Below are positions 6,288 to 24,654 of a stretch of DNA of 38,299 nucleotides, in pieces. A program made the translations under genes and the position numbers. The notes beneath the pieces are model-generated. The model was not told where the DNA came from, did no database searches, and saw only the letters and a program-made list of their open reading frames with translations. The first letter of the stretch is position 1; every line of letters begins with the position of its first letter. Source of the DNA: Burkholderiales bacterium (GTDB lineage Bacteria > Pseudomonadota > Gammaproteobacteria > Burkholderiales > Ga0077523); assembly GCA_022843925.1 (NCBI GenBank), contig JALHMS010000038.1, positions 1 to 38,299 on the forward strand, written 5' to 3'.

Positions 6288-6749
6288 TCACGGCGGGCAG
6301 ACCGACTTCGGTTCGGTCATCTCCTTGCAGTGCTGGTAGGCCTCCGCGCGGATGCTGCGGTTGGCCGTGCGAAACGGCGCGAAGCAGGCCATGCCTTCGT
6401 GGAAGAGGCGCCATTCCTTCTGGCAGGCCGTCTCGTTCGGGACCTCTCCGGCGCCGGCCTTCACCGGCTTGACCGAAGCGCCGGATTTCGCTTCGCGCTG
6501 GGCTTTCAGCGCATTCGCCGTGTTCTTCTCCCTCTGGATGCGCTGGAGCGCGGCGTCGCGATCCGCCTGCGAGGGCGCCTTGTCCACCTTCAGCGACTGC
6601 TGCTTCTGCTGATAGCGCTCCGGCACCTGGTCGCCGTAGTGCGTCTTGCCGTTCTCGTCGACCCACTTGTACAACTCGGCGCGGGCGGTGCCGGTGAGCA
6701 TGCAGGCGGCTGCCAGGCAAACAGCGGACAACACGTATCGGGTCTTCAC
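6288..6749 (-). CDS. DUF4124 domain-containing exported protein
   Basis: The protein has 153 residues and starts at GTG 6749, preceded by AAGGAA seven bases upstream; the upstream extension of the open frame overlaps other genes in another frame and is not used. Residues 1-24 are a signal peptide ending in TARA. The mature protein begins with the DUF4124 signature (ELYKWVDENGKTHYGD), a short beta-rich domain found at the N-terminus of many proteobacterial envelope proteins. It is followed by a charged coiled-coil-like stretch (residues about 50-85) and a C-terminal region with four cysteines that could form disulfides in the periplasm. Function is unknown. It lies upstream of nothing obvious in the same operon: the DUF2279 gene, also on the minus strand, ends 338 bp upstream. 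Confidence 0.8.
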   Translation of the reverse strand: MKTRYVLSAVCLAAACMLTGTARAELYKWVDENGKTHYGDQVPERYQQKQQSLKVDKAPSQADRDAALQRIQREKNTANALKAQREAKSGASVKPVKAGAGEVPNETACQKEWRLFHEGMACFAPFRTANRSIRAEAYQHCKEMTEPKSVCPP

Positions 6750-7087
6750 GGCGCTTTCCTTGTTCGAAGCTGGGAAGGGAGACGGCAACCACAGCACTTT
6801 CCGGATTCGCGGGTCGCAGGCACGACAACGGCAGAGACGCCGCGGATCCTGAGCGTGAACCGCCATCCGCCCGGTCGTCGGCACAGCGATGGGCATCCGG
6901 TCCGAGGCCCGAGCATGCGCCTGCTCGGAAGGCACTGCAGGTTGCCCTTCGGGGTACCGCACCGGATAGCAGCCGACCGACTCCCCGCAACGCGGTACGT
7001 CCAGCTGCCGTGCACCCGACGGCGTGGGCCGTGACGGCGTGACGCAGCACCTGCCCCCGCGCCGGCGATCGACAGGGCGGATGGCGA
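6750..7087 (-). other. Gap between DUF4124 and DUF2279 genes
   Basis: 338 bp with no recognisable coding sequence. Frames here are arginine- and cysteine-rich without domain signatures. The gap presumably contains the promoter of the DUF4124 gene near its right-hand start at 6749; no convincing -35/-10 pair, terminator or repeat was seen. Confidence 0.4.
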
Positions 7088-8462: not shown

Positions 8463-8972
8463 TCAGTGGTTCTCCCCTTGCTCTTTCGTTTCCCGGACCG
8501 GCATTGCTGAACTGGCGAAGCTCGGCCACCCGGCCGCCCATCGCTCGTGGGCTTTCAATGCCGGCCCCGTGAACCAGTCTTCCACGCGCAGGCCTGGTAC
8601 GCGCTCGAACTCGCGCACGTTGTGCGTCACGAGCGTCAGGTTGCGAGAACGTGCATGGGCAGCAATGAACAGGTCGTGGCCGCCGATGGGCTTGCCGGCA
8701 CCCTCGAGCGCTGCGCGGATGTCTGCGTAGTGCTGGTCGGCCGGTTCGTCGAGCGGAAGCACCGTCAATGACGCAAGCAGTTGCTCAACCCGATTCGTCA
8801 ATGCGACTGCTCCCTTGCGCTTGGCATCGAAGCGCAGTTCGCAGGCCACGACGATGCTGGCACAGATCGCATCCGGGTCGGTGGCTGCGAGGCGCTGAAC
8901 AATGGTGCCACGCGGGTTGCGGATCAGGTTGGACAGGGTGTTCGTGTCCAGCATCCACGCGGCCACAGCCAT
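8463..8972 (-). CDS. vapC: VapC-type PIN-domain ribonuclease toxin
   Basis: A 169-residue protein starting at ATG 8972, which overlaps the vapB stop by one base (TGATG), implying coupled translation. A GTG one codon upstream is an alternative. The PIN fold is shown by the first acidic motif (MLDTNTLSNLIRNP), the second acidic residue in the ACELRFDAKRKG region, the GGHDLFIAAHA motif and the final THNVREFERVPGL strand, which together place the four conserved carboxylates that bind Mg. VapC toxins are RNases that cut tRNA or rRNA when freed from the antitoxin. The C-terminus is about 25-30 residues longer than usual (KAHERWAAGWPSF to ENH); this tail may be run-on into the decayed helicase sequence next door. 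The target is unknown. Confidence 0.88.
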   Translation of the reverse strand: MAVAAWMLDTNTLSNLIRNPRGTIVQRLAATDPDAICASIVVACELRFDAKRKGAVALTNRVEQLLASLTVLPLDEPADQHYADIRAALEGAGKPIGGHDLFIAAHARSRNLTLVTHNVREFERVPGLRVEDWFTGPALKAHERWAAGWPSFASSAMPVRETKEQGENH

Positions 8973-9205
8973 CACAGCGGGTCCCGCGTCTGGGGCGGCG
9001 GATCGTCCCGATCGGGCAAGCTCTCGTCTAGAGCAGCCAATGACGCGAGCAGATCCAGCAGGCGGTTCTTGTGGATCGGCGTGAGGATCAGCCGGTCTCC
9101 CTCCTTGCGTATCAGAACCTCGGTGCCTTCCATCTCGAACTCCCGAGGGATTCGTACCGCCTGGTTGCGGCCATTGCGGAACAGTGAGGCGTGGCGTTCT
9201 GTCAC
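8972..9205 (-). CDS. vapB: VapB-type AbrB/SpoVT antitoxin
   Basis: GTG 9205 gives a 77-residue protein beginning VTERHASLFRNGRNQ, which is where VapB family members normally start, with a GGGGG purine run six bases upstream. In-frame ATGs at 9232 and 9244 would add 9 or 13 residues but lack a ribosome binding site. The N-terminal half is a swapped-hairpin AbrB DNA-binding domain (RNGRNQAVRIPREFEMEGTE, VLIRKEGDRLILTP). The acidic, proline-rich C-terminus (ESLPDRDDPPPQTRDPL) is the segment that inserts in the toxin active site in this family. VapB neutralises VapC and usually represses the vapBC promoter, which should lie just to the right of 9205-9250. Confidence 0.85.
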   Translation of the reverse strand: MTERHASLFRNGRNQAVRIPREFEMEGTEVLIRKEGDRLILTPIHKNRLLDLLASLAALDESLPDRDDPPPQTRDPL

Positions 9206-9249
9206 GTCGGCCCCCGATTGGGTGGTTGGCATATGGCTAAGCATGTGGC

Positions 9250-10260
9250 GCTGATGCGACAGGGGCAACACGAAACCGTACACACGAAGCCGGAGGCCCG
9301 GCATGTCCGGTCGGGGTACGGTGGATCGCGGGGACAAGCGCCCGGTTCCAGGGGTCGGTCGAAGCATCCGAGATTCCGCCGCCAGAATCGCCGTGAGCCG
9401 AGGAGCCTCGTTGAGGCAACGTCGGCCCAGTGGCCCCGCACACGTTCGCCGTTTCTTGCCCTGCTCTTGCGCTGCGACGACGGCGAGCAACCTGGTCGTC
9501 CCTCCGTTCCCGGTGTCCCGCTACGCGAGTCTTGTCGGCGACGTTGCTCGCGCCGTCCGCTCCAGAGGGGGCATGACCGTCCGGAGCGGCCGCGAAGTCT
9601 TCGAGGGTGGCCTGACGGGGCAGGTGCGACACAGGTCCTACAGGGGTAATGCCTGCCTTGCGTACGCCTTGCCCATTTCTGCCTCGGTCTTGCCCATGGT
9701 TCGCACATTTTCGACCCGGTCTTGCCCTCGCCGGCAGCGTTGAATCATGGTGACGACCTCGACGGACTCGCGTCGCCGGGTCTTCTTTCGAATGGTCTGA
9801 GAAGGTCGCGCCGACCCATTCCCGACCCACCTGCCGATTCAGTTCTGACCCGGGTGTTGCTTTCGACGGTATGGCCATTGAGTCGTCAGAGCACGTTGAT
9901 CAGATGGCCCACGCTTACCAACCCGAGGGCGGGCGCTCGCTCGGGCCAGTTCCACGGCTACCAGCACGGCGTCCATACCGGTCGCGGGGGCTGCCACTAC
10001 CTACCCATGGCGCGATCGCTAAGGGGTCTGCACAGCGGTGCGGCAGGTTCGCGCTGCCAGCCGTACCGCGTCCGACACTCGCCGCTCGTACCATTCCCCT
10101 GACGCGCTGTCCGGATTGAGGGGAGCCACTTCCGTCCTCTCGCGCTTGTGGCAGGCCTCGCGTGACGGATACATTCGGCGTCGCGAACTCGCTGCCGTCC
10201 GTCGGTGGCGCGGCACTGTCCGCTATCGTACGAACGAACGACGAAACCGAACGAGCCACC
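9250..10260. other. About 1 kb without a recognisable gene
   Basis: All six frames here give arginine/proline-rich or interrupted translations. A minus-strand frame (9237-9878) stays open and includes PRQATLEDFAAAPDGHA, but I recognise no family and the composition is that of random GC-rich sequence. Around 9660-9735 the minus strand repeats GGCAAGACCG twice with a third variant copy. The interval presumably contains the vapBC promoter at its left end and the promoter of the first caspase gene at its right end. It may be the remains of a mobile element, but no inverted ends were seen. Confidence 0.35.
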
Positions 10261-12140
10261 ATGCCGCTACTGCGCCCCTCGCGATCTTCCTGCTTCTGGC
10301 ATTCAGCGCGGGCGGTCCCGCGCAGGCTGCCCGACTCGCTCTGGTGATCGGCAACGACAGCTACAGCCGCGTCGAATCGTTGAGGAACGCTCGCGCGGAT
10401 GCGAAGGCAATGGCCAGGGCGCTCGAGGCGGCGGGGTTTCGCGTCAGTCTGGCGCTCGACCAGGATCAGAGCGCCATGAAGGCCGCGCTGCGCCGGTTCA
10501 AGGCGTCGCTCGCCGGCGGTGACGAGGCCGTGTTCTTCTACGCCGGGCACGGCGTCGAACTGGGTGGCGTGAACTACCTGCTGCCCACCGACATCCGCGA
10601 CGACAGCGACGATCAACTGCAGGACGACGCGATCCCGCTGCAACGGGTGTTGAGCGACCTCGCACAGCAGAAGCCGAAGTTCTCGCTGGCCATCATCGAT
10701 GCGTGCCGCGACGACCCCTTCAAAGGCAACGGGCGAACCGTAGGTACGCGGGGGTTAATGCCGGCAACCGCGGCCACCGGGCAGATGGTCATCTACTCGG
10801 CAGGCGCTGGTCAGAGGGCACTGGACCGCCTGAACGACGCGGACAAGTCGCCAAACGGAGTGTTTACCCGAGTGTTCGTGAAGGCAATGGAGAAGGAAGG
10901 CATGCAGGTTCACGAATTGGTGCGAAACGTCCGGCAGGAAGTGGCCCGACTCGCCTCGGGCGCGGGCCGTGAACAGGTACCTGCGCTGTACGACCAAGCC
11001 ATCGGAGACTTCTACTTCCGGCGGATCACAAACCCGACGGGGGAAGCATCGGACAAGGCTGCGCCTGTGTTGGCACCGATGGATGACCTAGATTTGGAGG
11101 GGCAGAGCTGGGGAGATGCAATACGGTTGGAGAACTACGAGGCTTACCTGAGGCAGTACCCGAAGGGGCGGTATGCGTCACTGGCACATGCGGCGAAGAA
11201 AAAATTAGACGAGCCGGCCAGCGAGATAACGGCTTCGGGACAAAAAGCTCAGAGCCAAGCCGAGTTCGCAGCGTACGAATCGGCAATGCAGTCGCGAACG
11301 CGAGATTCACTTGAGACGTACATGAGCGCGTATCCAACGGGGAACTACCGGGCTTTGGTCGCGGCGGCATTGGACGCCTTGCCCGTTGGTTCGGCTGCTG
11401 GCGCGGCGGAGAATCGCCGAGCTGCCTACCGGCCGGGGCAAGTGTTTCGGGAATGCGCGGAATGTCCCGAGGTAGTGGTGCTACCTAGCGGCGAGTACGA
11501 GATGGGTAGCCGCATGGGAGAAGGTTTTGGCGACGAACGTCCGACTCGTCGGGTGAGGATTTCTGGGTTTGCTTTGGGAAGGTACGAAGTGACCCAGGGG
11601 CAGTGGCGTGCGTTGATGGGACGCAACCCGAGCTACTTCGCCAAATGCGGGGACGACTGTCCAGTGGAGCATGTGACTTGGGAGGATGCGAAGACCTATC
11701 TTCAGAAGCTGAACGAAAAGGTGACCGGGCGGGCAGACGGTCCGTATCGGCTACCAAGTGAATCGGAGTGGGAGTACGGGTGTCGTGGCGGGAAGAGACA
11801 CGAGCACTGTGGTGGCGACGATGTTGACCGCGTGGCATGGTTCGAAGGAAACAGCAGGAACGAGAGCCACCGCGTTGGTGGCAAGGCGCGCAATGCCTAT
11901 GGTTTGCATGACATGAGCGGGAACATTCGGGAATGGGTGGAGGACTGTTGGAACGATGACTACACCGGCGCCCCCCAAGATGGAAGTGCGTGGACAAGGA
12001 TCAATTGCTCCAGGCGCGTGGTTCGCGGGGGTGGCTGGAACAACATTTACGCCAGCGTGCGCGCAGCCAGAAGGCAAAGTTATATGCCCGACGGCCGGGA
12101 CATCGACCTGGGCTTCCGGGTCGCGAGGACGTTACCGTAG
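10261..12140 (+). CDS. Caspase-like (metacaspase p20) protease fused to FGE/SUMF1 domain, exported; apparent frameshift at start
   Basis: The coding frame from about 10279 to the TAG at 12140 encodes a signal-peptide core (LAIFLLLAFSAGGPAQA), a caspase p20 domain (residues about 25-245), a linker with YEAYLRQYPKGRYASLA-type repeats and a C-terminal formylglycine-generating-enzyme/sulfatase-modifying-factor domain (about 395-626; SGEYEMGS, RLPSESEWEY, NIREWVEDC, GFRVAR). The catalytic His is in YAGHGVE (about residue 97) and the Cys in DACRDDPF (about 148). No ATG lies in frame near the signal peptide. ATG 10261 is one base out of phase, and adding one C to the C4 run at 10275-10278 would give MPLLRPLAIFLLLAF, a normal signal peptide. 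The frame is otherwise open back to 10038. So the gene is either mutated, a sequencing error, or starts unusually. It is paralogous to the next gene, and both probably act in the periplasm. Confidence 0.8.
10275..10278 (+). other. Probable one-base contraction in C-run (frameshift site)
   Basis: CCCC at this point separates the phase of ATG 10261 from the phase of the caspase-FGE frame. Five Cs would restore one continuous protein with a signal peptide closely matching that of the downstream paralogue. See the caspase entry. Confidence 0.55.
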
Positions 12141-12447
12141 CAGTGGCAGCCTGTTTCCTGTCGAGCTGCCCCTGTACCGATGCAAGCTGATCGAGTTGAA
12201 CGCTGATTTTGCGGCGGCATCCACGGCACTTGACGTGGCGAACGTCGGGCACCAGCGCCACGAACTGATCGGGCGGCAATTCGTGACGTCGGGCGACATC
12301 GGGGATCACGGTTTCGTCGACGTGGCATTGGGCGACACCGTAGTGGATGCCCCGGTGGTCGAGGCGACGCTGTCGTACACCACGAAGCCACGCTGATCCG
12401 AATGGTCCTTGCCTTCCGACGCCCCACCAAGCGACCCTGTTGAATCT
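12141..12447. other. Gap between the two caspase-FGE genes
   Basis: 307 bp. A plus-strand frame that overlaps the end of the first gene stays open to 12396, and a minus-strand frame reads through with a KCRGCRR segment, but neither has a start with a ribosome binding site or a family signature I can name. The gap may hold a promoter for the second caspase gene; no clear -10/-35 was found. The length argues against tight translational coupling of the two paralogues. Confidence 0.35.
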
Positions 12448-14295
12448 ATGCGCCGCCACCACCACGCCCTCGCACTGATCGTCATCCTCCTCGGCCTTCT
12501 GGCCACCACCGCGCATGCGGCGCGCGTGGCACTCGTGATCGGCAACGACACGTACGCCAACGTCGCCCGACTCAAGAATGCGCGGGCAGACGCGAAGGCG
12601 ATGGCCAAAGCGCTGGAGGGGTCCGGGTTCCGCGTCATGCTCGTGATGGATGCAGACCGGGAGGCGATGAACGAGGCCCTGAGGAGGTTCCGAGCAAGCA
12701 TCGTCGGGGGTGACGAAACGGTGTTCTCGTATGCGGGCCATGCGGTGGAGCTCGACGGCGTGAATTACTTGCTACCCACCGACATCCGCGACGACAACGA
12801 CGAACGCGTCGCCAACGACGCCCTGCCGCTGCAGCGCGTACTGAGCGGACTTGCACAACAGAAGCAGCGGTTCTCGTTGGTGATCATCGACGCTTGCCGG
12901 GACAACCCCTTCGCAGGGAAGACCCGCAACGTCGCCACGCGGGGTCTCGTGCCGACGGCCATGGCGGTAAAGGGGCAGATGATCATCTACTCGGCCGGGG
13001 CAGGTCAGCGAGCACTCGACCGGTTGCGTGCCGATGATCCGTCACCGAACAGCGTGTTCACGCGAGTGTTCGTGCGGGAGATCGAGAAGAGTGGTCAGCC
13101 CGTACACGAGGTGGTACGTCTCGTGAAGGACGAAGTGATGCGGCTGGCCGAGAGCGTGGGGCACGAGCAGATGCCCGCGATCTACGACCAGTCGGTGGGG
13201 ACGTTCTACTTCCGTGGTAGCGACAGCGCGAAGACCATACCGACCGTGCCGACGACTCCGGCGTTGAGCATGGATGCCGACGAGCAGATCTGGCAGGAGG
13301 CGAAGCGTCTAGAGACGGTGGAAGGGTACGAGGCTTACCTGGAGGCGTACCCGAAGGGCAAGTACGCAGCGATGGCGAGGGCTGCGAAGAAGAAGCTGAC
13401 GGTCGTGGCGTCGGCCGCGCCGACCACAGCAGCCGCAGCCGAGATATCCATGACGGGGAAAACCTTCCGCGACTGTCCCACGTGTCCGGAGATGGTGGTG
13501 ATTCCCTCTGGCGAGTACCGCATGGGAAGTCCTTCGTTCGAGGCCGGGCGGCGTGACGACGAAGGCCCGGTGCACCCGGTGCGGGTGAAAAGCTTCGCAC
13601 TTGGGAAACGGGAAGTGACGCGCGGCGAGTTTCGACGGTTCGTGCTGGCAACAGGGCGTTCGGTGGGCAACTGCGCTGTCATCGAGGGCACAACGATGAA
13701 GATCGACCCCGCACGGAGCTGGGCAAACCACAACCATGGTTACTACACTCAGACGGATGATCATCCAGTGGCGTGCGTCAGCTTTGACGATGCGCAGGCG
13801 TACGCGTTGTGGCTGGGGACGATGACGGGCAAGCCGTATCGACTGCCGAGCGAATCCGAATGGGAGTACGCAGCGAGGGGAGGAGGGCAAGACTCGAGGT
13901 ATTGGGGCAATGGCGAGAGGGCAGCGTGTCAGTACGCGAACGTGGCGGACGAGACAGCGAAACGGAGGTTCAACTGGAGTCCTACTTTTGACTGCGAGGA
14001 CAAGTACGCGGGTACGGCACCAGTGGGGTCGTACAAGCCGAATGCGTTTGGCTTGTTCGATATGTTGGGGAATGTCCGGGAATGGGTCGAGGACTGTTAC
14101 CACGAGACCTACGATGACGCGCCGACGGATGCACGTGCTTGGGTGAGCGGAGACGGTGAATGTGCACTTCGCGTGAACCGGGGTGGTGCGTTTGACCGCG
14201 AACCCGCGTTCGTTCGTTCGGCTGCTCGCAGCCTCTTCCCCTATCACGTCGGCGACGCCAACCTGGGTTTTCGTATTGCCAGATCGCTTCCTTGA
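12448..14295 (+). CDS. Caspase-like protease fused to FGE/SUMF1 domain, exported (second paralogue)
   Basis: A 615-residue protein from ATG 12448. Residues 1-24 form a signal peptide (MRRHHHALALIVILLGLLA, ending TAHA). The caspase p20 domain spans about 25-255: VALVIGNDTYANV, catalytic His at 98 in YAGHAVE and catalytic Cys at 150 in DACRDNPF. The usual Gly after the His is Ala here, which could affect the oxyanion region; the dyad itself is intact. A linker with EGYEAYLEAYPKGKYAAMA precedes the FGE/SUMF1 domain (about 341-615; PSGEYRMGS, LGKREVTRGEFRRFV, RLPSESEWEYAARGG, LGNVREWVEDC, LGFRIARSLP). FGE-type domains of this kind adopt a C-type-lectin-like fold and often bind ligands rather than oxidise cysteine. 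Related caspase-plus-ligand-binding proteins are suspected to execute cell death or processing in conflict systems; the target here is unknown. Confidence 0.88.
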   Translation: MRRHHHALALIVILLGLLATTAHAARVALVIGNDTYANVARLKNARADAKAMAKALEGSGFRVMLVMDADREAMNEALRRFRASIVGGDETVFSYAGHAVELDGVNYLLPTDIRDDNDERVANDALPLQRVLSGLAQQKQRFSLVIIDACRDNPFAGKTRNVATRGLVPTAMAVKGQMIIYSAGAGQRALDRLRADDPSPNSVFTRVFVREIEKSGQPVHEVVRLVKDEVMRLAESVGHEQMPAIYDQSVGTFYFRGSDSAKTIPTVPTTPALSMDADEQIWQEAKRLETVEGYEAYLEAYPKGKYAAMARAAKKKLTVVASAAPTTAAAAEISMTGKTFRDCPTCPEMVVIPSGEYRMGSPSFEAGRRDDEGPVHPVRVKSFALGKREVTRGEFRRFVLATGRSVGNCAVIEGTTMKIDPARSWANHNHGYYTQTDDHPVACVSFDDAQAYALWLGTMTGKPYRLPSESEWEYAARGGGQDSRYWGNGERAACQYANVADETAKRRFNWSPTFDCEDKYAGTAPVGSYKPNAFGLFDMLGNVREWVEDCYHETYDDAPTDARAWVSGDGECALRVNRGGAFDREPAFVRSAARSLFPYHVGDANLGFRIARSLP

Positions 14296-14522: not shown

Positions 14523-16076
14523 ATGTCATCCGACCTCGTCGCCATCGAAAACCGTCTCTGGGCTGCGGCTGATCAGCTCTGGGCCAATACCGGCCTGAAG
14601 CCCGCGGAGTTCTCGACTCCGGTCCTTGGCCTGATCTTTCTGCGGTACGCCGACAAGCGATTCGGCGAAGCCTCCACCGCTCTCCTCGCGAAGGGCCTGG
14701 ACGCGGACGAATTGGAGGCGATGGACTACCAGGCCGAGGGCGTGCTTTATCTGCCGGACGAAGCCCGGTTCTCGCACCTCCTGACGCTGACCGAGGGTGC
14801 CAACCTGGGGAAGGCCATCGCCACCGCGATGGCGCTGGTGGAAGAGTACAACCCCGAACTGAAAGGCGTGCTGCCGCGCGGTTACAACCTGTTGCCCAAT
14901 GCCACGCTGGTAGAACTCCTGCGCCTGCTGGCGCCGCTGGATCTGGAGGGAGATGCCTTCGGCAAGGTGTACGAGTACTTCCTCGGTAACTTCGCGCTGA
15001 AGGAGGGCCAGAAAGGCGGCGTGTTCTACACGCCCACCAGCATCGTGCGGCTGATCGTCGAGATCCTGCAGCCTTTCCATGGCCGCATCTTCGACCCGGC
15101 CTGCGGCTCGGGCGGCATGTTCGTCCAGTCGGCTGCCTTCGTGCAGCGCCACCAGAAGAACGCCACCCGCGAACTCACCGTGTTCGGCACGGAGAAGGCC
15201 AGCGACACCGTGAAGCTGGCCAAGATGAACCTGGCGGTGCACGGCCTGTCGGGTGACGTGCGCGAAGCCAACACCTACTACGAAGACCCGCACAAGGCGC
15301 TGGGTCGGTTCGATTTCGTGATGGCCAATCCGCCGTTCAACGTCTCCGGCGTGGACAAGGACAGGCTGAAGGACGACGCCCGCTTCGCACTGGGACTGCC
15401 GACCACGGACAACGCCAACTACCTGTGGATCCAGCTCTTCGCGTCCAGCCTCAACGAGAACGGGCGCGCCGGCTTCGTGATGGCCAACTCGGCGGGCGAC
15501 GCGCGCGGCAGCGAACTGGAGATCCGCAAGAAGCTGATCCAGAGCGGCGCGGTGGACGTGATCGTCAGCGTCGGCTCCAACTTCTTCTACACCGTGACGC
15601 TTCCCTGCACGTTGTGGTTCTTCGACCGCGCCAAGGCCCGCGGGCCACGCAAGGACAAGGTGCTGTTCCTCGACGCGCGGCCGTACTTCAAGCAGGTGAG
15701 CCGTGCAATCCGCGAGTTCACGCCTGAGCAACTGGAGTTCCTGGCCAATGTCGTGCGGCTGTACCGGGGCGAAGCCCCGGAGTTTGCTGACGGCAGCAAG
15801 GCGATGTTGGTGGAGAAGTTCCCGACGATGGCCTACGCAGACGCGGCGGGGCTTTGCAAGGTAGCCACCTCCGCCGACATCGAGGGCCAGGGGTGGAGCT
15901 TCAATCCCGGTCGGTATGTAGGGGTCGGCGAGCGGGAAGCCGAGGACGTGGACTACCTGACCAAGCTTGAGGCACTGGCCGAGGAGTTCGAGGCGCTTGG
16001 TCTGGAAGCGCGCGCGCACGAAGTTGTCGTTGGCGAGAACTTGGCACTGCTGATTGGTGGCGCCAGTGGGAGTTGA
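14523..16076 (+). CDS. hsdM: Type I restriction-modification system DNA methyltransferase subunit (HsdM)
   Basis: This 517-residue protein has the complete N6-adenine methyltransferase layout of the M subunit. It opens with the HsdM N-terminal helical domain (residues about 5-140; [18 protein letters not shown]), then [18 protein letters not shown], the SAM-binding motif [11 protein letters not shown] (about 190-200) and the catalytic NPPF (about 269-272). HsdM pairs with HsdS to methylate adenine at the site HsdS recognises, and joins HsdR to form the restriction enzyme. It is the first gene of the locus and overlaps the start of hsdS, so the two are coupled. The 227-bp gap upstream probably contains the promoter (a TTGACG hexamer at 14444 is a weak -35 candidate). 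GC content matches the chromosome flanks better than the 22-27 kb part of the island. Confidence 0.95.
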
Positions 16077-17298
16077 ACAGCCGCTTTTCCTGCATGAGGA
16101 TGAGCTCCCTGCGATACCAAGTGGCTGGCAGTGGGCGCGTAGCGATTCGCTGGTAATCCCACTCAAGCCCGGGAAGCTCTTCGACACGAAGACCATTGCC
16201 CCGACGGGAGCGGTTCCGGTGTTGAATCAGTCCGAAAGTGGCTTTCTTGGTCATCACGATGAAGAGCCAGGGGTTGTTGCCTCGCCCAGCGCGCCGGTCG
16301 TTACGTTTGCGAACCACACTTGTGCCCTGCGCTTGGTGAGGCACCCCTTCTCAGCCATTCAAAACATCTTTCCAAAGGTCGGTCAGGCAGGTGTTTGCGA
16401 CACGGTCTGGTTCTACTACGCGCTTCTGGGGCGAGTTCGCACCAATGAGTACAAGGGCCATCACCCGCTCTTTCGTGACGCCTTCGTTCCCGTGCCACCG
16501 ATCGCCATACAACGTCGCGTCGCCTCGATCCTCTCTGCCTACGACGACCTGATCGAGAACAACACGCGGCGCATCGCGATCCTGGAGGAGATGGCCCGGC
16601 GCATCTACGAGGAGTGGTTCGTCCGCTTCCGCTTTCCCGGTCACGAGGGCGTGCGGATGGTCGAGTCTGAGTTGGGCTTGGTGCCGGAGGGATGGCCGGT
16701 CCTGGCAGCTTCAACAGCGATGGACATCAACCCGAGCACAAAGGTACCCAAGGAGGGCTTGAAGCCATTCTTGGCAATGAACTGCCTGTCGGACGGTTCG
16801 ATGCTGATCGACACCGCTGGTGAGCGTGAGGGTAACAGCGGGTCGAAGTTTCGCAACGGCGACACGTTGTTCGCGCGGATCACGCCTTGCCTTGAAAACG
16901 GTAAGACTGGGTTCGTCCAGTTCCTGCCGAGTGACGACGCCGTCGCCTTCGGTTCGACGGAGTTCATCGTGCTCCGCTCCCGAACCCTGACACCAGAGTT
17001 CGTGTACCTGCTCGCGCGCTCCGATGCCTTTCGCGACAACGCGATCAAGAGCATGTCGGGCGCATCGGGACGGCAGCGTGTCCGCGAGGCGTGCTTCGAT
17101 ACGTTCCTGTTGCCCAATCCGGACCAGGAGACACTAGCGAGGTTCGCGGCTGTGACCCGGCCGATGTTTCACCTTGTTCAATCGCTGGCGCTCAAGAACT
17201 CGAACCTCCGTGCGACCCGCGACCTGTTGCTCCCCAAGCTGATCTCCGGCGAACTGGACGTGTCGGCCCTTCCTGAACTGGAAACGGTTTCCGCATGA
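16066..17298 (+). CDS. hsdS: Type I restriction-modification specificity subunit (HsdS)
   Basis: The gene overlaps the hsdM stop. GTG 16066 has GGTGG six bases upstream; TTG 16054 and GTG 16057 are alternatives that change the N-terminus by three or four residues. The roughly 410-residue protein has two target-recognition domains. The first covers about residues 10-150 and is followed by a conserved helical spacer ([20 protein letters not shown], then [20 protein letters not shown]). The second covers about 205-365 and ends in the second helical repeat ([20 protein letters not shown]). Each domain reads one half of a bipartite DNA site, and the spacer helices set the distance between halves. 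The sequence recognised cannot be predicted here. Downstream lies a convergent PIN-toxin gene rather than hsdR. Confidence 0.93.
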
Positions 17299-17327
17299 AC
17301 TTATCCGCCCGACGTCGTGGCCACCCC

Positions 17328-17348
17328 ACCTGTCCGGGCGGGACAGGT
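17328..17348. terminator. GC-rich hairpin between convergent hsdS and PIN-toxin genes
   Basis: ACCTGTCC and GGACAGGT form an 8-bp stem around a GGGCG loop in the short space between the two stop codons. There is no T-run on either side, so it would act as a hairpin block or RNA-stabilising end rather than a classical intrinsic terminator. A second stem (GCGGCC/GGCCGC, 17350-17372) follows and reaches into the toxin's last codons. Confidence 0.35.
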
Positions 17349-17360
17349 TGCGGCCAACGG

Positions 17361-17930
17361 TCAACCGGCCGCGAACAACTCACGCAGTGCCATGGCCGTT
17401 TCCGGCAAGCCGCAGCGTTCCAGGTGACCGATGAAGAGGTCGGGCGTGGTGGGTGGATGTGCCCACGCGGCCAACATCGTCTCCATGCGAGCGCGTACGA
17501 CGGCCGGCGACAGGTCGACCAGGTGGCGCAGAAAGGTGTCGGGGTGCTGCGGTCTGATGCCGTGGCCGGCCAGCACGTCCTCAGGAAAGTCGCGTTCGTT
17601 GAAGGTGACAATCACCTCGGCCTTGGCGCGGATGGCGGCGGCCAGCACATGGCGGTCATCGGGGTCGGGCAGCGTCAGTGCGGGTATCAGCACGTCGTGG
17701 CCACGGACGCACGCATCGGGCAACGCTTCGTCCATCGCAGCCCGGCGCCTTTCCAGCCTATGCAAGGCAATGTCGGGTCGGGCGGCCTGAACGGAGCGCA
17801 TCCACTCGGCGTGGATCTCGGCGCTCCAGGCCGGGCGGAACAGGCGCGCGTCGGCCAACTCCAGCAGCAGGCTGGTCAGCGGGTAGCTGTGCAAGACATT
17901 CGCGTCCAGCACCGCGGTGAAGTGGCTCAC
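17361..17930 (-). CDS. PIN-domain toxin protein
   Basis: A 189-residue protein starting at GTG 17930 (no strong ribosome binding site), 24 bases after the stop of the HTH gene upstream, so translated from the same transcript. PIN motifs are AVLDANVLHSYPL (first acidic residue near 9), IHAEWMRSV (second), LPDPDDRHVLAAAI (third) and EVIVTFNERDFP (fourth), giving the usual metal-binding set. The C-terminal 50 residues (VVRARMETMLAAW to LRELFAAG) form a helical extension found in this PIN subfamily rather than in VapC. Inferred role: an RNase toxin held by the HTH partner. The pair is inserted between hsdS and hsdR in the opposite orientation, a known habit of RM-linked toxin-antitoxin modules. 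Confidence 0.85.
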   Translation of the reverse strand: MSHFTAVLDANVLHSYPLTSLLLELADARLFRPAWSAEIHAEWMRSVQAARPDIALHRLERRRAAMDEALPDACVRGHDVLIPALTLPDPDDRHVLAAAIRAKAEVIVTFNERDFPEDVLAGHGIRPQHPDTFLRHLVDLSPAVVRARMETMLAAWAHPPTTPDLFIGHLERCGLPETAMALRELFAAG

Positions 17931-17954
17931 GGGAAGGGGGGCCCGGGAGTTCCG

Positions 17955-18407
17955 TCAGAGACCCAGTTCCTGGTCGATGCGAGCCAACTCGTCCAGCGCG
18001 CTGCGTCTGCGCGCGCGATCCTGCTCGTCGAAACGCAGCAAGTCTTCGAACGCCACGCGGCGCCGTGTGCCCACCTTCCGCGCAGGCAGTTTGTTCTGTT
18101 CGATCAGCGCCACCACGTAGGGGCGCGAGACGTTCAGGTAGTCGGCCACTTCCTGGGTCGTGAGCTCAGCGCGCTGCGGCACCAGGGTGATCGCGCGCCC
18201 CTGCCCCAGTTGCGTGAGCATGTCGATGAACAGCCGCAGCGCTCCCGGTGGGAACGAGATCATCTCGTGCCGATTGTCGTCAGTCACCAAACGAAGTGGT
18301 TGCATGTCGTCGGGCAGCAGCCGCGCCAGTTGCCGGCTGGCTTCGCGGGCTTGAGCGATCTCGTCTTCGTTGGGGAGTCGGGGCGGATTGCGGTTTGCGG
18401 TGGCCAT
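17955..18407 (-). CDS. HTH (excisionase/MerR-type) antitoxin partner of the PIN toxin
   Basis: A 150-residue protein from ATG 18407, with GGAG about eight bases upstream; an in-frame ATG eight codons further up is less likely. The N-terminal 90 residues are mostly helical and resemble the dimerisation part of PIN-partner antitoxins (EISFPPGALRLFI-like segment at about 45-65). The C-terminal part holds an excisionase-type winged helix (ELTTQEVADYLNVSRPYVVA, then KVGTRRRVAFEDLLRF). These proteins bind DNA and block the toxin; autorepression is likely. The right-hand upstream region contains tandem repeats that could be its operator. Assignment as antitoxin rests on the HTH family plus its position directly ahead of the PIN gene. 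Confidence 0.82.
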   Translation of the reverse strand: MATANRNPPRLPNEDEIAQAREASRQLARLLPDDMQPLRLVTDDNRHEMISFPPGALRLFIDMLTQLGQGRAITLVPQRAELTTQEVADYLNVSRPYVVALIEQNKLPARKVGTRRRVAFEDLLRFDEQDRARRRSALDELARIDQELGL

Positions 18408-18421
18408 GGCGGCGTCTCCGG

Positions 18422-18473
18422 TGCACTGCACTGCAATTTAGCACGCGAACGAAACGAACGAAACGAACGAATC
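18422..18473. repeat. Tandem repeats upstream of the HTH antitoxin gene
   Basis: TGCACTGCACTGCA (5-bp period, 18422-18435) is followed by three copies of a 9-bp unit, GAACGAAAC, GAACGAAAC, GAACGAATC (18447-18473). They lie 15-66 bp upstream of the antitoxin start, exactly where its promoter and operator should be, so binding sites for the HTH protein are the simplest guess. Confidence 0.6.
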
Positions 18474-18817
18474 GGAAGATCTGCGCGGTCCGCAGGGCTT
18501 CGGGGACGGAAGTGCTCGTCCTGACGTTTCTCGAGGCACGCGTCGAATCGGCTGCAAGAAGTGTCCGATTCGTCAGTTCGAACGCGGAAGAGCGGCGGCA
18601 GGTGATTGATTTGTATGCATCTCGTGGCAACTGGAAAAGTCAGTTGCCGAACTGACAGTGTCAGAACGGGCCGCGCGCCGTGTGGCAGTCTCTGCCGGCG
18701 GAATTGGATAGGCTGGAGCCCGAGGCCGGGGTTTAGCCAAGGAGTTATCCAATCCACTGCGGCGAAGGAGCGTGAAGTGATTGATCGACAATCGATTGCT
18801 GTTGGATAGGGGGGCAA
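18474..18817. promoter_or_regulatory. hsdR upstream region with overlapping inverted repeats
   Basis: The non-coding sequence ahead of hsdR carries several dyads. CGAATCGG/CCGATTCG lies at 18544-18572 with a 13-base loop. GGCAACTG/CAGTTGCC lies at 18626-18648 with a 7-base loop. GTCAGTT/AACTGAC lies at 18639-18656 with loop GCCG, and TGACAGTGTCA at 18653-18663. The second and third stems share bases and cannot form together. CAATCGATTG is a further palindrome at 18789-18798. The arrangement suits protein operators or alternative RNA folds controlling the nuclease subunit. Confidence 0.5.
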
Positions 18818-21800
18818 TTGAGCAGCTATTCCAGCCAGGGCCCGAAGCATGTCGCGCGAGAAGTCTCCGCCGGCTACGGCGAGCTGGCGCTCGTCGAGAT
18901 GCCGGCGATCGACCTGCTGACCTCGCTGGGCTGGAGCTTCAAGAACCTCTACGCCGAGACCTTCGGTGAGGTGGGCAGTGAGGGGCGCGAGAGCGAGTCA
19001 CAGGTCATCCTGATTCGCCGGCTGCGCGCGGCGCTCGAAGCGCTGAACCCCGGCCTGCCTGCCGACGCCTACGCGCAGGCTATCGAGCAGCTTGCGCAGG
19101 ACCGCTCCAAGCAGATCGCCGTCAACGCGAACCGCGACTTCTACCGGCTGCTGAAAGACGGCGTGAAGGTGAAGGTGCCCGACGAGCACGGCGGTAACAG
19201 CACCGAGACGCTGCGCGTGATCGACTGGCTCACGCCCGTCAACAACGAGTTCTTCCTGACGTCGCAGATGTGGGTGGCCGGCGACATGTATCGCCGACGC
19301 TGCGACCTGCTGGGCTTCGTGAACGGCCTGCCGCTGGTGTTCATCGAACTGAAGAAGCCAGCCGTGCCGCTGAAGAGTGCCTTCGACGACAACCTGCGGG
19401 ACTACCGTGGCCAGAGCGTGCCGCAGCTTTTCCACCCCAACGCCTTCATCCTGTTGAGCAACGGCTCGGATACGAAGGTGGGCACGCTCACCAGCGCGTG
19501 GGAGCACTTCTTCGACTGGAAGCGCGTTGCCGACGAAGACGAGGCCGGCAAGGTGAGTCTGGAGCGCGCGCTGCGCGGCCTTCTGGAGCCGGCGCGGCTG
19601 CTGGACTACATCGAGAACTTCACTGTCTTCGAGGAGGGCAAGGGCGGCCTGATCAAGAAGACAGCCAAGAACCACCAGTTCCTGGGTGTGAACAAGTCCA
19701 TCGCGCGGCTGGTGGAACTGCGCGAGACCGAGGAGCGGGAGCGCAAGCGGCTCGGTGTGTTCTGGCACACGCAGGGATCGGGCAAGAGCCTCTCGATGGT
19801 GTTCTTCACGCAGAAGGTGCTTCGCCGGGTGCTGGGGAGTTGCACCTTCGTGATCGTGACCGACCGCGAGGAGCTGGACGATCAGATCAGCAAGACCTTC
19901 AAGGCCACCGGCGCCACGGCGCGCGAGGACGTTCGCGCCACCAGTGCCGAGCATCTGAAGGAACTGCTACGCGGCAACGAGCGCTACATCTTCACGCTGA
20001 TACAGAAGTTCAGGAACGAACCGGGGCAGCCGTACCCGATGCTGTCGGACCGCTCGGACGTGATCGTCATCACCGATGAGGCGCACCGCAGTCAGTACGA
20101 CATCTTCGCGCTGAACATGCGCAACGCTCTGCCCAACGCGGGCTTCATTGGATTCACCGGCACGCCGCTGATCAAGGGTGAGGAGGAGCGAACGCGCGAG
20201 GTGTTCGGCGACTACGTCAGCGTGTACGACTTCGCCCGGTCGATCGAAGACGGCGCCACGGTGCCGCTGTACTACGAGAACCGGATCCCCGAGGTACAGC
20301 TCACCAACCAAGAGTTGAATCGCGACCTCGAGGCGCTGCTCGAAGCGGCCGAACTGGACGAGGACCAGGAAAAGAAACTGGAACGCGAGTTCGGTCGCGA
20401 GTACCACATCATCACCCGCGAAGATCGGCTGGAGGCCATTGCCGCGGACATCGTCGCGCACTTCACGGGACGCGGGTACCGGGGCAAGGCGATGATGGTC
20501 TGCATCGACAAGGCCACCGCCGTGCGGATGTACGACAAGGTGCAGGCGCATTGGCAGACCGAGATCGCCCGATTGAAGGCCGCGCTCGTGACGGCCCAAG
20601 GCGATGCAAGGGAGTCGCTGCTCGCCCGCATCAATCTGATGGAGACCACGGACATGGCCGTGGTCGTCTCCCAGGGTCAGAACGAGATCGAGGACCTCAA
20701 GGCCAAGGGTCTGGACATCGTGCCGCACCGCAAGCGGCTGCTCAGTGAAGACCTCGCCGAGAAGTTCAAGGAAGAGAAGAGCGCTCTGCGGTTGGTATTC
20801 GTCTGCGCCATGTGGATCACCGGCTTCGACGTGCCGACCTGCTCGACGATCTACCTCGACAAGCCCATGCGGGCGCACACGCTGATGCAGACCATCGCCC
20901 GCGCCAACCGGGTTGCGCCCGGCAAGGAGTCAGGCCTGATCGTTGACTACGTCGGCATCTTCCGCGCGCTCCAGAGCGCTTTGGCCACGTACGCGCGCCC
21001 GACGACGGGCGGCGGAGGCGGCGGGCCGATTCTCGACAAGACCGAATTGGTGGAGGCGCTGAAGCTCGCACTCGAGGAGACGGAAGGCTTCGCGACGGCA
21101 CGCGGAATCCACCTTCCGAACATCGCGGCATCGCAGGGCTTCGAGCGCATCGCTCTGATCGACGATGCCATCGAGGCATTCCTTGCGACCGAGGCCGACA
21201 AGAAGAGCTTCCTGCAACTCGCCAGCCGCGTGGCGCGACTCTTCAAGGCAATCCTGCCGGATCCGACCGCCAACGCGCTCGCACCGATGGCCGTGCTGGT
21301 GTCGTACCTCGCCGCGAAGATCCGCGCCGAGACCGAGCAGCCCGACATCTCTGCGGTGATGGGTGACGTCGAGGAGCTGCTGAACGACTCGATCGCGACA
21401 GAGGGGTACCGCATCGGACCAGCGTCGAAACCCGAGGCCTTGGTGAACCTGTCGGAGATCGATTTCGAAGCGCTACAGGCAAAGTTCGCGCAGGGGCACA
21501 AGCGAACCGAGGCGGAGAAGCTGCGTCGTCTGATCGAGGGCAAGCTCGCCGACCTCATGAAGATCAATGCCGCACGAGTGGAACTCGCGGAGAAGTTCCA
21601 GAAGCTCATCGACGAGTACAACGCCGGCAGCCAGAACATCGAGGCGTTTTTCGAGGAACTGAAGAAGTTCGCCCAGGCGCTCTCGGTGGAAGAACAGCGA
21701 GGCATCGCAGAGAGCCTGACCGAAGAGGAGCTGGCGCTCTTCGACATCCTCACCAAGCCGGAGCCAGTGCTGACCAAGGCCGAGGAGGCCGAAGTGAAGA

Positions 21801-22036
21801 AGGTCTGCCGGGAACTGCTGGCGACCCTGAAGCGGGAGAAGCTGGTGCTGGACTGGCGGGAGAAACAACAGGCGAAGGCGGGTGTGATGCAGACACTGAA
21901 GCTGGAGATGCGGCGGTTGCCGGAGCCGTATACGAAGGACCTACGGGCGGAGAAGCTGGCGCGGGCGTATGCGCATGTGTATGACCACTATTCTGGGCTA
22001 GGCAATGTGGCTCCCCACACGTATTACGCTGCCTAG
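18818..22036 (+). CDS. hsdR: Type I restriction endonuclease subunit R (HsdR)
   Basis: A 1072-residue protein. TTG 18818 is the first start after an in-frame TGA at 18782 and has GGGGGG four bases upstream. Residues about 20-260 form the nuclease domain with the PD-(D/E)xK elements in CDLLGFVNGLPLVFIELKKP (about 162-180). The helicase/translocase motor follows: Walker A HTQGSGKSLSMVFF (about 317), DEAH box VITDEAHRSQYD (about 420), GFTGTPLIKGEE and CAMWITGFDVPTCSTIYLDK. The last 250 residues are helical and bind the methylase core. HsdR translocates DNA with ATP and cuts when complexes collide on unmethylated DNA. It is separated from hsdS by 1.5 kb holding the opposing toxin-antitoxin pair, and so likely has its own promoter. 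Confidence 0.95.
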   Translation: MSSYSSQGPKHVAREVSAGYGELALVEMPAIDLLTSLGWSFKNLYAETFGEVGSEGRESESQVILIRRLRAALEALNPGLPADAYAQAIEQLAQDRSKQIAVNANRDFYRLLKDGVKVKVPDEHGGNSTETLRVIDWLTPVNNEFFLTSQMWVAGDMYRRRCDLLGFVNGLPLVFIELKKPAVPLKSAFDDNLRDYRGQSVPQLFHPNAFILLSNGSDTKVGTLTSAWEHFFDWKRVADEDEAGKVSLERALRGLLEPARLLDYIENFTVFEEGKGGLIKKTAKNHQFLGVNKSIARLVELRETEERERKRLGVFWHTQGSGKSLSMVFFTQKVLRRVLGSCTFVIVTDREELDDQISKTFKATGATAREDVRATSAEHLKELLRGNERYIFTLIQKFRNEPGQPYPMLSDRSDVIVITDEAHRSQYDIFALNMRNALPNAGFIGFTGTPLIKGEEERTREVFGDYVSVYDFARSIEDGATVPLYYENRIPEVQLTNQELNRDLEALLEAAELDEDQEKKLEREFGREYHIITREDRLEAIAADIVAHFTGRGYRGKAMMVCIDKATAVRMYDKVQAHWQTEIARLKAALVTAQGDARESLLARINLMETTDMAVVVSQGQNEIEDLKAKGLDIVPHRKRLLSEDLAEKFKEEKSALRLVFVCAMWITGFDVPTCSTIYLDKPMRAHTLMQTIARANRVAPGKESGLIVDYVGIFRALQSALATYARPTTGGGGGGPILDKTELVEALKLALEETEGFATARGIHLPNIAASQGFERIALIDDAIEAFLATEADKKSFLQLASRVARLFKAILPDPTANALAPMAVLVSYLAAKIRAETEQPDISAVMGDVEELLNDSIATEGYRIGPASKPEALVNLSEIDFEALQAKFAQGHKRTEAEKLRRLIEGKLADLMKINAARVELAEKFQKLIDEYNAGSQNIEAFFEELKKFAQALSVEEQRGIAESLTEEELALFDILTKPEPVLTKAEEAEVKKVCRELLATLKREKLVLDWREKQQAKAGVMQTLKLEMRRLPEPYTKDLRAEKLARAYAHVYDHYSGLGNVAPHTYYAA

Positions 22037-22181: not shown

Positions 22182-23345
22182 ATGGATGATCATCCTCAGA
22201 TGTGCGACCCCCGCACGTGGGCCATCAAGTGCAGCCAAATAAGGGACGTAGCAGTAGTGGCCTTCCTGGTACTCACTGCTGTATCGACGAACGCGCTTGC
22301 CGACCAGAAGCAATCCATTGTCGCCCCAGTCGCCGGATCCAGCCAAGAGTCCGGCGCGGTGGGCCAAACGGTCCAATCGGGTCAGCCAAAATCTGCGAGC
22401 GCGTGGGCGCCTCCAGTTTCCACGTCAGGTAGCGCGAGTCCATCTCTTACGTTGTCGTGCTCTAGCACGTCGCAAGAGAAGTGTTCCGTAATTGGTTTTG
22501 TTGATGCGGTCGCGTGGCCACTGGTGGCGATTCTTGTTCTTGCTGCGCTGATTTTGAGCAGCAACCTCCGCCGAGTGATATTGAATGTATTGCGGTACAT
22601 AAAGAAATTCAAGGGTGGACCGGTCGAATTCGAGTTTAGTGACGAGGCTGCTAAGGATGTATCAGCATCGGTCGCGACTGACTTGAAGATCTTCATTGCG
22701 GCAGCTAGGAGTGAATACGATCGGCAGGCAAGGGCACACAATATTGATCAACTACTCGAGTCGGCAGTTGACGAGATCTTCTCGAAACGGCGTAAGGGCG
22801 ATCGTCCCAAGAATCTGCGAGCGACGCTGCATGTGCCAGACCTTGTTTTTGAGGGGCAGCTCTATCAGATGGTCAACTATCAGCCCGACGCATCTGGGCG
22901 AGGCAGAAGATGGTCGGAGCGATATGGAATTCTTGGTCGGTCGTGGCGCTTGGGCCGGAGCCTCTTCACCGACTACGCGATGGGTCATGAAAAAGCAGAC
23001 GCAGCAGAGACTACTGGAGATGCAGAAAGAATGTTGATTTGCAACTGGGGAATGAATCGCTTCGAAGCTAAGCGTGGATCCAATAGAGATGTGCGCCAGT
23101 CCTACTTGTGTGTCGTGCTGAGGACCAAAACGGAACGAGTCGGCGTTCTCTATATGGACGCAACAGATAAAGGCGCCTTTTCGGATTTCTCCAAAGACAG
23201 GGAGGACCCGGCCAATATGGAGGCCGACCCAACATTGGAAAGCTTACAGGCAGTAATGGCGCTTGCGGAAGCTGTCTCTAGTGCCATGAAGGCACTTCGG
23301 CCTGGAGGGGCGTATATCGACATCGAAGCGCAAGAATGGAACTGA
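22182..23345 (+). CDS. Membrane-anchored protein with GAF-like cytosolic domain, unknown function
   Basis: A 387-residue protein, not a family I can name with certainty. Residues about 22-40 are hydrophobic (VAVVAFLVLTAVSTNALA), probably a signal anchor or cleaved signal. A Ser/Gly/Pro-rich low-complexity stretch follows, with a cysteine pair near residues 87-96. A definite transmembrane helix (VDAVAWPLVAILVLAALILS) ends in basic RRVILNVLRYIKKFK, which predicts a cytosolic C-terminus. Residues about 150-195 look coiled-coil. The final domain (about 205-380), with LVFEGQLYQMVNYQPD, RYGILGRSWRLGRSLF and TERVGVLYMDA, has the strand order and GxxGR turn of GAF sensor domains. The next gene, a methyltransferase, starts one base after this stop, so the two are one transcript. 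Base composition is markedly AT-richer than hsdR. Confidence 0.75.
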   Translation: MDDHPQMCDPRTWAIKCSQIRDVAVVAFLVLTAVSTNALADQKQSIVAPVAGSSQESGAVGQTVQSGQPKSASAWAPPVSTSGSASPSLTLSCSSTSQEKCSVIGFVDAVAWPLVAILVLAALILSSNLRRVILNVLRYIKKFKGGPVEFEFSDEAAKDVSASVATDLKIFIAAARSEYDRQARAHNIDQLLESAVDEIFSKRRKGDRPKNLRATLHVPDLVFEGQLYQMVNYQPDASGRGRRWSERYGILGRSWRLGRSLFTDYAMGHEKADAAETTGDAERMLICNWGMNRFEAKRGSNRDVRQSYLCVVLRTKTERVGVLYMDATDKGAFSDFSKDREDPANMEADPTLESLQAVMALAEAVSSAMKALRPGGAYIDIEAQEWN

Positions 23346-23346
23346 C

Positions 23347-24054
23347 GTGGACGACTACAAACTTGTTGCGCATGAGTACTACGATAAGAATGCACATCCA
23401 ACCTGCCACAACTTCCTGTGTTTGAGCAGGCTATTCATCGCGGATCAACTGGCACTTTGGCAACCTGGTGATCGGGTGCTCGAGGTAGGTGCAGGCGACT
23501 CAGTTGCCGCCGCCATCTTGTACGAAAGAGGTGCAGACTTATCGGCTCTTCAAGTAACCGACGCGAGCAAGGAAATGCTATCGCATTCCGAGCGCTGGGC
23601 GAAACTAGGGGCGGCGATGCGCGTTGCCGCTGCGAGTGCCCTGCCCTATGCGGACGGCTCGATGGATTATGTAGTTGCAAGTTTGGCTGACCCATACGAC
23701 TGCACGGCCTTCTGGGACTCTGTTCGGCGTCTGCTTACCCCGAGCGGTCGTGCCATTGTGACGGTCCCATCATTTCGCTGGGCTAGCGCGTTCCGACGCG
23801 CAGATGGCGACCACCACGTCCTGTCTGCAGAGTTTACTTTGCGGGATGGATCAAGGGTAAGGATGCCTTCGCTGGTACGACCACTCGCAGACGAGGTCGC
23901 GATGATTGAAGGATCTGGGCTTGAGGTAACGGTCTTCCGTTGTCTCGGAGCGGATCTGTTGCCGAGTGACGTACCCGCGTCGCCCAAGGCTCTAGTCTTT
24001 CAGGGAGGTCACTCTTCTCTCGTTTGGGGGTTTGTCGCTGTCAAGGCGCAGTAA
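23347..24054 (+). CDS. Class I SAM-dependent methyltransferase
   Basis: A 235-residue protein starting at GTG 23347, one base after the previous stop, implying coupled translation with the membrane GAF-like protein. Motif I is VLEVGAGDSVAAA (residues about 40-52). The acidic loop is LQVTDASKEML, motif II lies in ASALPYADGSMDYVVASLAD and motif III in LLTPSGRAIVTVPS. This is a Methyltransf_11-like fold that could act on a small molecule, lipid or protein; nothing identifies the substrate. The 3' end overlaps the convergent kinase gene by 14 bp. Composition matches its operon partner, suggesting both arrived together. Confidence 0.85.
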   Translation: MDDYKLVAHEYYDKNAHPTCHNFLCLSRLFIADQLALWQPGDRVLEVGAGDSVAAAILYERGADLSALQVTDASKEMLSHSERWAKLGAAMRVAAASALPYADGSMDYVVASLADPYDCTAFWDSVRRLLTPSGRAIVTVPSFRWASAFRRADGDHHVLSAEFTLRDGSRVRMPSLVRPLADEVAMIEGSGLEVTVFRCLGADLLPSDVPASPKALVFQGGHSSLVWGFVAVKAQ

Positions 24055-24646: not shown

Positions 24647-24654
24647 AGGATGCT

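Follow-up and report, generated by a model that had tools for sequence, protein, structure and literature searches.

The window analysed here, a 38,299-nucleotide stretch that makes up the whole of contig JALHMS010000038.1 (C38) in the 5.57-Mb genome of a Burkholderiales bacterium (GCA_022843925.1), carries two adjacent genes, each coding for a caspase fused to a domain of the formylglycine-generating enzyme (FGE)-sulfatase family. We lean, with somewhat more confidence than doubt, towards the view that the two proteins are exported sensor-proteases of one family, each combining a ligand-binding FGE-type half with a caspase effector. A ligand sensor with a built-in protease is the best reading because an exported caspase is joined to an FGE end that has lost its catalytic residues, and because the binding ends of this family are either mutated by diversity-generating retroelements (DGRs) or swapped by recombination.

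The open frames 10038-12140 and 12409-14295, both on the + strand, encode the same succession of a caspase domain, a linker and an FGE-sulfatase-family domain, as a preliminary description of this DNA had proposed. Pfam Peptidase_C14 matches copies 1 and 2 with E-values of 1.3e-33 and 1.1e-28, and Pfam FGE-sulfatase with 1.7e-47 and 3.4e-61, far above the family cut-off. The His-Cys dyad is complete in copy 1 (H171 in YAGHG and C223 in DACRDDPF, open-frame P0001 numbering) as well as in copy 2 (H111 in YAGHA and C163 in DACRDNPF, open-frame P0002 numbering). Both proteins thus qualify as orthocaspases, which have a caspase p20 domain with this dyad, and copy 1 does so by a fold match to MALT1 as well. 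Their scores of 58.5 and 52.4 bits miss the cut-off of 140 for EACC1-associated caspases (NF047832), and the PADLOC "caspase" model matches them only in part (6.2e-14 and 4.7e-10). A linker repeat, YEAYLxxYPKGxYA, is common to both and reads YEAYLRQYPKGRYA in copy 1 and YEAYLEAYPKGKYA in copy 2. Paralogy is beyond chance, the DNA of the two caspase parts matching with an E-value of 8.6e-79. The caspases are 68% identical and the FGE domains 43-48%, depending on the alignment, which agrees with the earlier proposal that the FGE domains diverge while the protease is kept. The two paralogues, their domains, dyads and linker stand as described; the start assigned to copy 1 does not.

Judged from its sequence, the "FGE" part of both copies is best read as a fold and a putative binding domain, and not as an enzyme, because the cysteines of the enzyme are missing. 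Both copies have the FGE-type fold, but neither has the catalytic cysteine pair that formylglycine-generating enzymes carry near the C-terminus: residues 660-700 of copy 1 and 588-628 of copy 2, the tails where FGE has its own cysteines, contain none. When copy 2 is aligned to the enzyme 6muj, one enzyme cysteine lies opposite an arginine and the other in a gap, and on these grounds we rejected an enzymatic role. Structure prediction, suggested earlier for both proteins, was carried out with AlphaFold for mature copy 1 only, from an 18-sequence alignment. With a mean predicted local distance difference test (pLDDT) score of 81.2 and a predicted template-modelling score of 0.44, the domain folds of this model are usable and the arrangement of the domains is not. 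The model matches PvdO, the MALT1 caspase, TvpA and FGE. In a sequence search of solved structures, copy 1 finds PvdO (5hha; 1.1e-33) and the Treponema DGR variable protein TvpA (2y3c; 4.5e-23), then others including FGE, so that PvdO and TvpA are its closest solved structures by sequence and among its best fold matches. PvdO is also closest to copy 2 (1.5e-50), followed by FGE enzymes from 5.9e-27, with TvpA weaker at 1.7e-07. Unlike the window copies, PvdO and TvpA have no caspase, and both copies score far below the NCBIfam PvdO cut-off of 500 bits (147.7 and 229.3). These matches support the suggestion that a protease is linked here to a putative ligand-binding domain of FGE-type C-type-lectin fold.

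Export, likewise suggested earlier, is supported by sequence, most clearly for copy 2, which starts at a regular ATG (12448) with a stretch resembling a signal peptide; copy 1 has a similar hydrophobic core (signal peptides were assessed by eye and with a hydropathy window). The ATG at 10261, previously taken as the start of copy 1, is out of the caspase frame, and its reading ends after 28 aa. The only standard starts in frame before the signal-peptide core are GTG 10038, TTG 10116 and TTG 10146, and because these lie 60-96 residues ahead of the mature part, the start of copy 1 is uncertain, with an annotation limit, a small frameshift or an assembly error as possible causes.

The sequences of relatives indicate that the caspase-FGE family is a family of DGR targets. 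Four caspase-FGE fusions are present in the genome, two in the window, one on contig C21 and one on contig C12, plus a lone caspase on C37. Directly after the C12 fusion lies the only match in the genome to the reverse transcriptase (RT) family RVT_1, with Avd (NCBIfam equivalog, 98 bits versus a cut-off of 80) before the RT and a template repeat after it. Over 105 bases, 7 of the 28 template adenines are changed in the C12 variable repeat, against 1 of the 77 other bases. At locus L020, from an uncultured betaproteobacterium, a single template (8847-8979) with RT and Avd (recognised by tblastn) is accompanied by three caspase-FGE targets, the first of which has a frame break. Their variable repeats are changed at 9, 11 and 16 of 28 adenines versus 2, 2 and 1 of 77 other bases. 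With adenine-directed differences beside Avd and RT, the C12 paralogue and the three L020 relatives are DGR variable proteins, and the hypermutation of the same tail in all of them supports the proposed diversification of the binding domain with a conserved caspase. Such loci are rare: among 399 genomes of the order (up to 5 candidates scored per genome, all neighbourhoods read with tblastn), 16 RT places with E <= 1e-40 were found in 15 genomes, with an FGE relative near 5 and a caspase-FGE gene near 1, that of the genome itself. L020 was found in a collection other than these 399 genomes, and the scan for templates and variable repeats compared same strands only.

Some further observations concern these retroelements. 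In the C12 target (L015 8045-8155), mutagenesis has made a TAA of a template AAA codon and the protein ends early; the C12 template has AAA codons, which allow stops, and at the 11 sites compared every codon of the L020 template ends in a pyrimidine. Near the L020 array, at 15725-17164, a caspase is fused to an Lcl_C domain. A DGR in genome G006 (L134 7430-8635 and 10384-10485) has a 76% identical RT and targets a TPR-FGE protein without a caspase match, the variable repeat region being out of frame at its end. A further DGR in the genus lies in genome G008 (contig C78, L137 5944-8964; template 6648-6783, variable repeat 6426-6561), where the other strand carries another FGE gene, and G008 has more RT genes on C86 and C116.

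The window copies themselves are, as far as their sequences tell, DGR-independent, island-borne relatives of DGR targets. An RT and a template are present in the same genome, but this single DGR, on C12, serves the third paralogue. Compared with the C12 template, the tails of copies 1 and 2 are changed at 15 and 21 of 28 adenines and also at 22 and 28 of 77 other bases, whereas the differences of a DGR variable protein fall almost only at template adenines. Searched against the whole genome, the copy 1 tail recovered C21, the C12 template (at 82% over 61 bases) and otherwise just short, weak matches. The copy 2 tail gave nothing beyond such short, weak matches, and neither search brought up a further template. 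Given the non-adenine differences and the lack of another template in these searches, we rejected the window pair as current DGR targets. The excess of mismatches at C12 template adenines (p = 0.017 and 0.00045, all codon positions) was not used as proof of DGR action, since surface positions vary anyway and most foreign templates give the same excess.

Comparison of trees shows another mode of change, in which new binding domains are placed on conserved catalytic scaffolds, since the caspase and FGE groupings differ and DNA identity stops in the linker. The caspase tree joins copy 2 and C21 as sisters (support 0.997; 92-93% identity), with nonsynonymous and synonymous divergences (dN and dS) of 0.046 and 0.64. 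In the FGE tree, copy 2 groups with C12 and its relative in genome G002 (60% identity to C12), and copy 1 with C21 and two G002 copies (support 0.94; 62% identity to C21). The DNA of copy 2 is 83% identical to that of C21 from 12347 to 13341, a position within the linker.

Three places in the genome carry a DUF4384-like gene whose product begins with a signal-peptide-like stretch, and a caspase-FGE gene lies close to every one of them. The first place is immediately ahead of the C21 fusion, the second follows the C12 DGR after two small intervening genes, and the third is the remnant in the window. In Pfam, this partner matches DUF4384 only below the cut-off, and its C12 member not at all. Among the 399 genomes (here with up to 3 candidates scored per genome), it was found at 7 places in 5 genomes, 6 of them near a caspase gene, namely the three in its own genome, one in G002, and one each beside WD40-caspases of G011 and G137. 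For the remaining place, in G322, tblastn found no nearby caspase, the neighbours there having been only partly scanned with Pfam. The partner was seen at only 1 of the 80 homologue loci described below. The gene appears to follow the caspase and not the FGE domain, and because the sensor half is FGE or WD40 while the partner stays, this suggests that it serves the caspase as a substrate or a regulator. At L183 6172-10598 and L184 22-3796, a DUF4384-like gene lies directly after WD40-caspase genes. A weak partial resemblance of the partner model to DUF330, LpoB and CsgG chains was not used, given its low confidence.

The pair lies in a defence-rich block, as previously described, with a type I restriction-modification (RM) locus and an anti-phage dCTP deaminase clustered at a variable tRNA-Arg site (Table 1). 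We take this block to be a tRNA-Arg island, because synteny breaks at the tRNA and because other genomes carry different insertions there. From 27352 rightwards the window is syntenic with genome G003 at 94% identity, and to the left nothing matches the 40 kb of G003 that were read, except 49 bases of the tRNA. In G003 these 49 bases of the tRNA end are repeated at the same site, which also has an integrase gene, and in G011 the site is occupied by another type I RM locus; no second copy of the tRNA end is found within the window. Among the window genes scanned (up to 27 kb) there is no MoxR, vWA or STAND NTPase, and a narrow search of viral contigs, with P0001 as sole query, gave no relative. 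Elsewhere in the window are a DUF4347/cadherin-like repeat protein of at least 1721 aa that runs off the contig end (2-5164, - strand), a deoxynucleoside-kinase-like gene near the deaminase gene (24041-24676, - strand) and a 387-aa gene (22182-23345) for which neither Pfam nor PADLOC nor NCBIfam gave a match at the thresholds applied.

Table 1. Features of the window around the two caspase-FGE genes.
Feature	Position	Strand	Remarks
PIN-domain gene	8463-8975	-	
MazE-like antitoxin gene	8972-9490	-	
Copy 1 open frame, predicted exported caspase-FGE fusion	10038-12140	+	mature part from ~10326
Copy 1 caspase (Peptidase_C14) domain	10332-11012	+	His171/Cys223, P0001
Copy 1 linker repeat YEAYLRQYPKGRYA	11136-11177	+	
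Copy 1 FGE-type C-type-lectin-fold domain	11463-12128	+	tail without cysteines
Copy 1 tail homologous to DGR variable repeat of relatives	12015-12119	+	
Remnant of DUF4384-like gene, internal deletion	12157-12396	+	matches C21 copy L016 9518-9303, then its 3' end
Copy 2, predicted exported caspase-FGE fusion	12448-14295	+	ATG 12448
Copy 2 caspase domain	12523-13191	+	His111/Cys163, P0002
Copy 2 linker repeat YEAYLEAYPKGKYA	13327-13368	+	83% DNA identity with C21 copy ends inside, at 13341
Copy 2 FGE-type domain	13483-14283	+	closer to FGE domain of C12 DGR target
Copy 2 tail homologous to DGR variable repeat	14170-14274	+	
Type I RM	14523-22036	+	HsdM 14523-16076, HsdS 16054-17298, HsdR 18818-22036
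PIN_3 gene inside type I RM stretch	17361-17930	-	
Anti-phage dCTP deaminase	25251-26942	-	NCBIfam equivalog, 449 bits versus cut-off 400
tRNA-Arg(CCG), edge of variable island	27368-27444	-	

This setting does not recur among homologues. Our survey covered 80 loci, many on short contigs, of which 10 have a caspase with an FGE domain and 70 a caspase without a detected FGE domain. Two or more fusions in tandem occur at 2 of the 10 FGE-bearing loci (L020 and L046), an RT at 1 of the 80 loci, and relatives of the window HsdM, HsdR or deaminase at none of the 80, so that the anticipated pattern of tandem pairs beside defence genes was not borne out. Six homologue neighbourhoods, viewed by eye with few proteins put through Pfam, look mostly like regulators, transporters and housekeeping genes; other defence families were checked only by eye in these six, and no conserved association with defence genes emerged. 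Absences by tblastn are soft, the caspase queries having missed the Pfam-positive C37 caspase and the L183 WD40-caspase. Within the genus, 10 of 12 genomes (own included) match P0001 somewhere, mostly by FGE domains alone. G002, apparently the metagenome-assembled genome that contains L046, has three tandem fusions with a partner gene, and G011 has a caspase gene without FGE. A further Peptidase_C14 gene (L135 4169-6298, - strand) faces the tandem array of three in G002. Homologues in housekeeping contexts had been named beforehand as evidence that would tell against the earlier interpretation; they largely do so for the defence context and not for the sensor-protease reading. The defence setting of the window is genuine but may only reflect the sharing of an island, and any defence role of the pair is hypothetical.

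Several elements of this family are already in print. Asplund-Samuelsson 2012 (PMC3501461) lists 33 metacaspase/orthocaspase-FGE-sulfatase fusion sequences with the same two domains as the window copies, takes FGE as an enzyme, speculates about a dual enzyme and leaves function open; the term "retro" is absent from its main text. The present fusions differ in lacking the FGE cysteines, in having DGR targets among their relatives, and in occurring as tandem copies with exchanged sensors and a linked DUF4384-like gene. Cyanobacterial orthocaspases described by Vallota-Eastman 2020 (PMC7517822) likewise have a caspase-like N-terminus and a C-terminal, DGR-diversified C-type lectin (CLec) domain, with paralogues outside the DGR. 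Those proteins are mostly predicted to be cytosolic, with signal or transmembrane regions in 4 DGR-associated and 9 remote ones, whereas the present family is betaproteobacterial, has signal peptides, a template with three tandem targets (L020) and a partner gene, and its window pair has no DGR. The conflict systems of Dore 2024 (PMC10907252) also link FGE-type CLec sensors to protease effectors; some of the DGR targets are predicted to be secreted or periplasmic, and one has a caspase-like CHAT and a TIR domain. Most of those sensors come with STAND NTPases or MoxR/vWA/VMAP parts, while in the window sensor and caspase form one short protein. Among open-licence full texts we found no paper on exported betaproteobacterial caspase-FGE DGR targets, a three-target DGR, sensor exchange or the partner.

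Domains, dyads and the lack of FGE cysteines can be read in the sequence, as can the DGR marks of relatives, the exchange of domains, the association with a partner and the island context; ligand sensing, activation, a substrate and any role in defence are inferred from there. In the proposed mechanism, the N-terminal caspase, with its MALT1-like fold and complete dyad, would be the effector and the C-terminal FGE-type C-type-lectin domain the binding half, with the ligand site probably in its last ~35-40 residues. A ligand, which might come from phages, predators or rivals or be a nutrient, would be bound outside the cytoplasm, in the periplasm or at the surface, and would cluster or unlock the caspase, which would then cut a target, possibly the exported DUF4384-like partner of the family. 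Specificity could be renewed by a DGR rewriting the tail from a template, as for the C12 paralogue and the three L020 paralogues, or, as in the window, by exchange of whole binding domains at the linker followed by ordinary mutation. The preliminary description had seen the two genes as a sensor-executioner pair among defence genes. Its coupling of binding fold and protease, export and diversification carry over into our reading; the repeated defence neighbourhood and the "pair" do not, as both halves are present in each protein and the number of copies at other loci varies from one to three. It is a tentative and rather doubtful extension that one retroelement rewrites up to three tandem caspase tails, that domains recombined onto other scaffolds are kept DGR-independent on tRNA islands, and that all feed one family-specific exported partner cut by the caspase, making up an exported, single-protein adaptive system of betaproteobacteria.

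A number of results weigh against two sensor-proteases. RT, Avd and template are absent for the window copies, and their tails show the non-adenine differences from the C12 template given above. Pyrimidine-ending codons, which are only suggestive of past DGR action, occupy 9/11 and 10/11 sites in the window tails, but non-caspase FGE genes without a detected DGR have 5/11 to 10/11. The FGE domain of copy 2 scores better with FGE enzymes than with TvpA, and the node that joins it to C12 in the FGE tree has a support of 0.35 (0.92 one node further out, where L021 is added). The partner model is of low quality (pLDDT 66.5), and no known fold matched it at E <= 0.001. The defence genes of the window have no relatives at the homologue loci, many of which are on short contigs. 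Finally, because the partner beside the pair is reduced to a remnant and the start of copy 1 is doubtful, the window locus may be decaying.

The last point leads to a rival explanation, which we consider quite unlikely, that the pair is what remains of a decaying sensor-protease module, carried on a mobile island and already without its partner, its mutator and the start of copy 1. The partner remnant, the out-of-frame ATG of copy 1, the missing template and the stop in the variable repeat of the C12 relative would all fit; however, both frames are open over their full length with intact dyads, dN/dS between the caspases of copy 2 and C21 is low (0.046/0.64), and C12 or C21 could supply the partner. 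A realistic if unlikely alternative is that these are exported orthocaspases for ordinary extracellular or envelope proteolysis, serving the breakdown of nutrient protein or envelope upkeep, with an FGE half that only anchors them to substrate or matrix and with no part in conflict. The mostly regulatory, transport and housekeeping look of the homologue neighbourhoods (by eye, with some proteins checked) and the lack of relatives of the window HsdM, HsdR and deaminase there are in line with this, as is the speculation in PMC4933709 that betaproteobacterial metacaspases degrade extracellular protein. A DGR acting on the binding tail in two genomes is hard to square with a generic protease, though, and exchange of sensors on conserved scaffolds and a partner gene tied to the caspase also speak against it. 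A dual enzyme, in which a catalytic formylglycine-generating or other SUMF1/EgtB-type oxidase is fused to the protease (compare PMC3501461), is extremely improbable. It would account for the strong FGE-sulfatase family match, for the FGE structures that the copy 1 model matches and for the rank of FGE structures directly behind PvdO in the copy 2 sequence search, but not for tails without cysteines and an arginine and a gap facing those of 6muj.

If the two proteins are indeed sensor-proteases, bacteria would export a protease with a recognition end that a dedicated mutator rewrites. Such a protein would resemble an adaptive receptor that carries its own executioner, and it would work without the NTPase parts of most conflict systems in PMC10907252. 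The metacaspase-FGE fusions of PMC3501461 would gain a testable meaning, with the FGE half as a binding site and not an enzyme, and the DUF4384-like partner gene would be the immediate candidate substrate.

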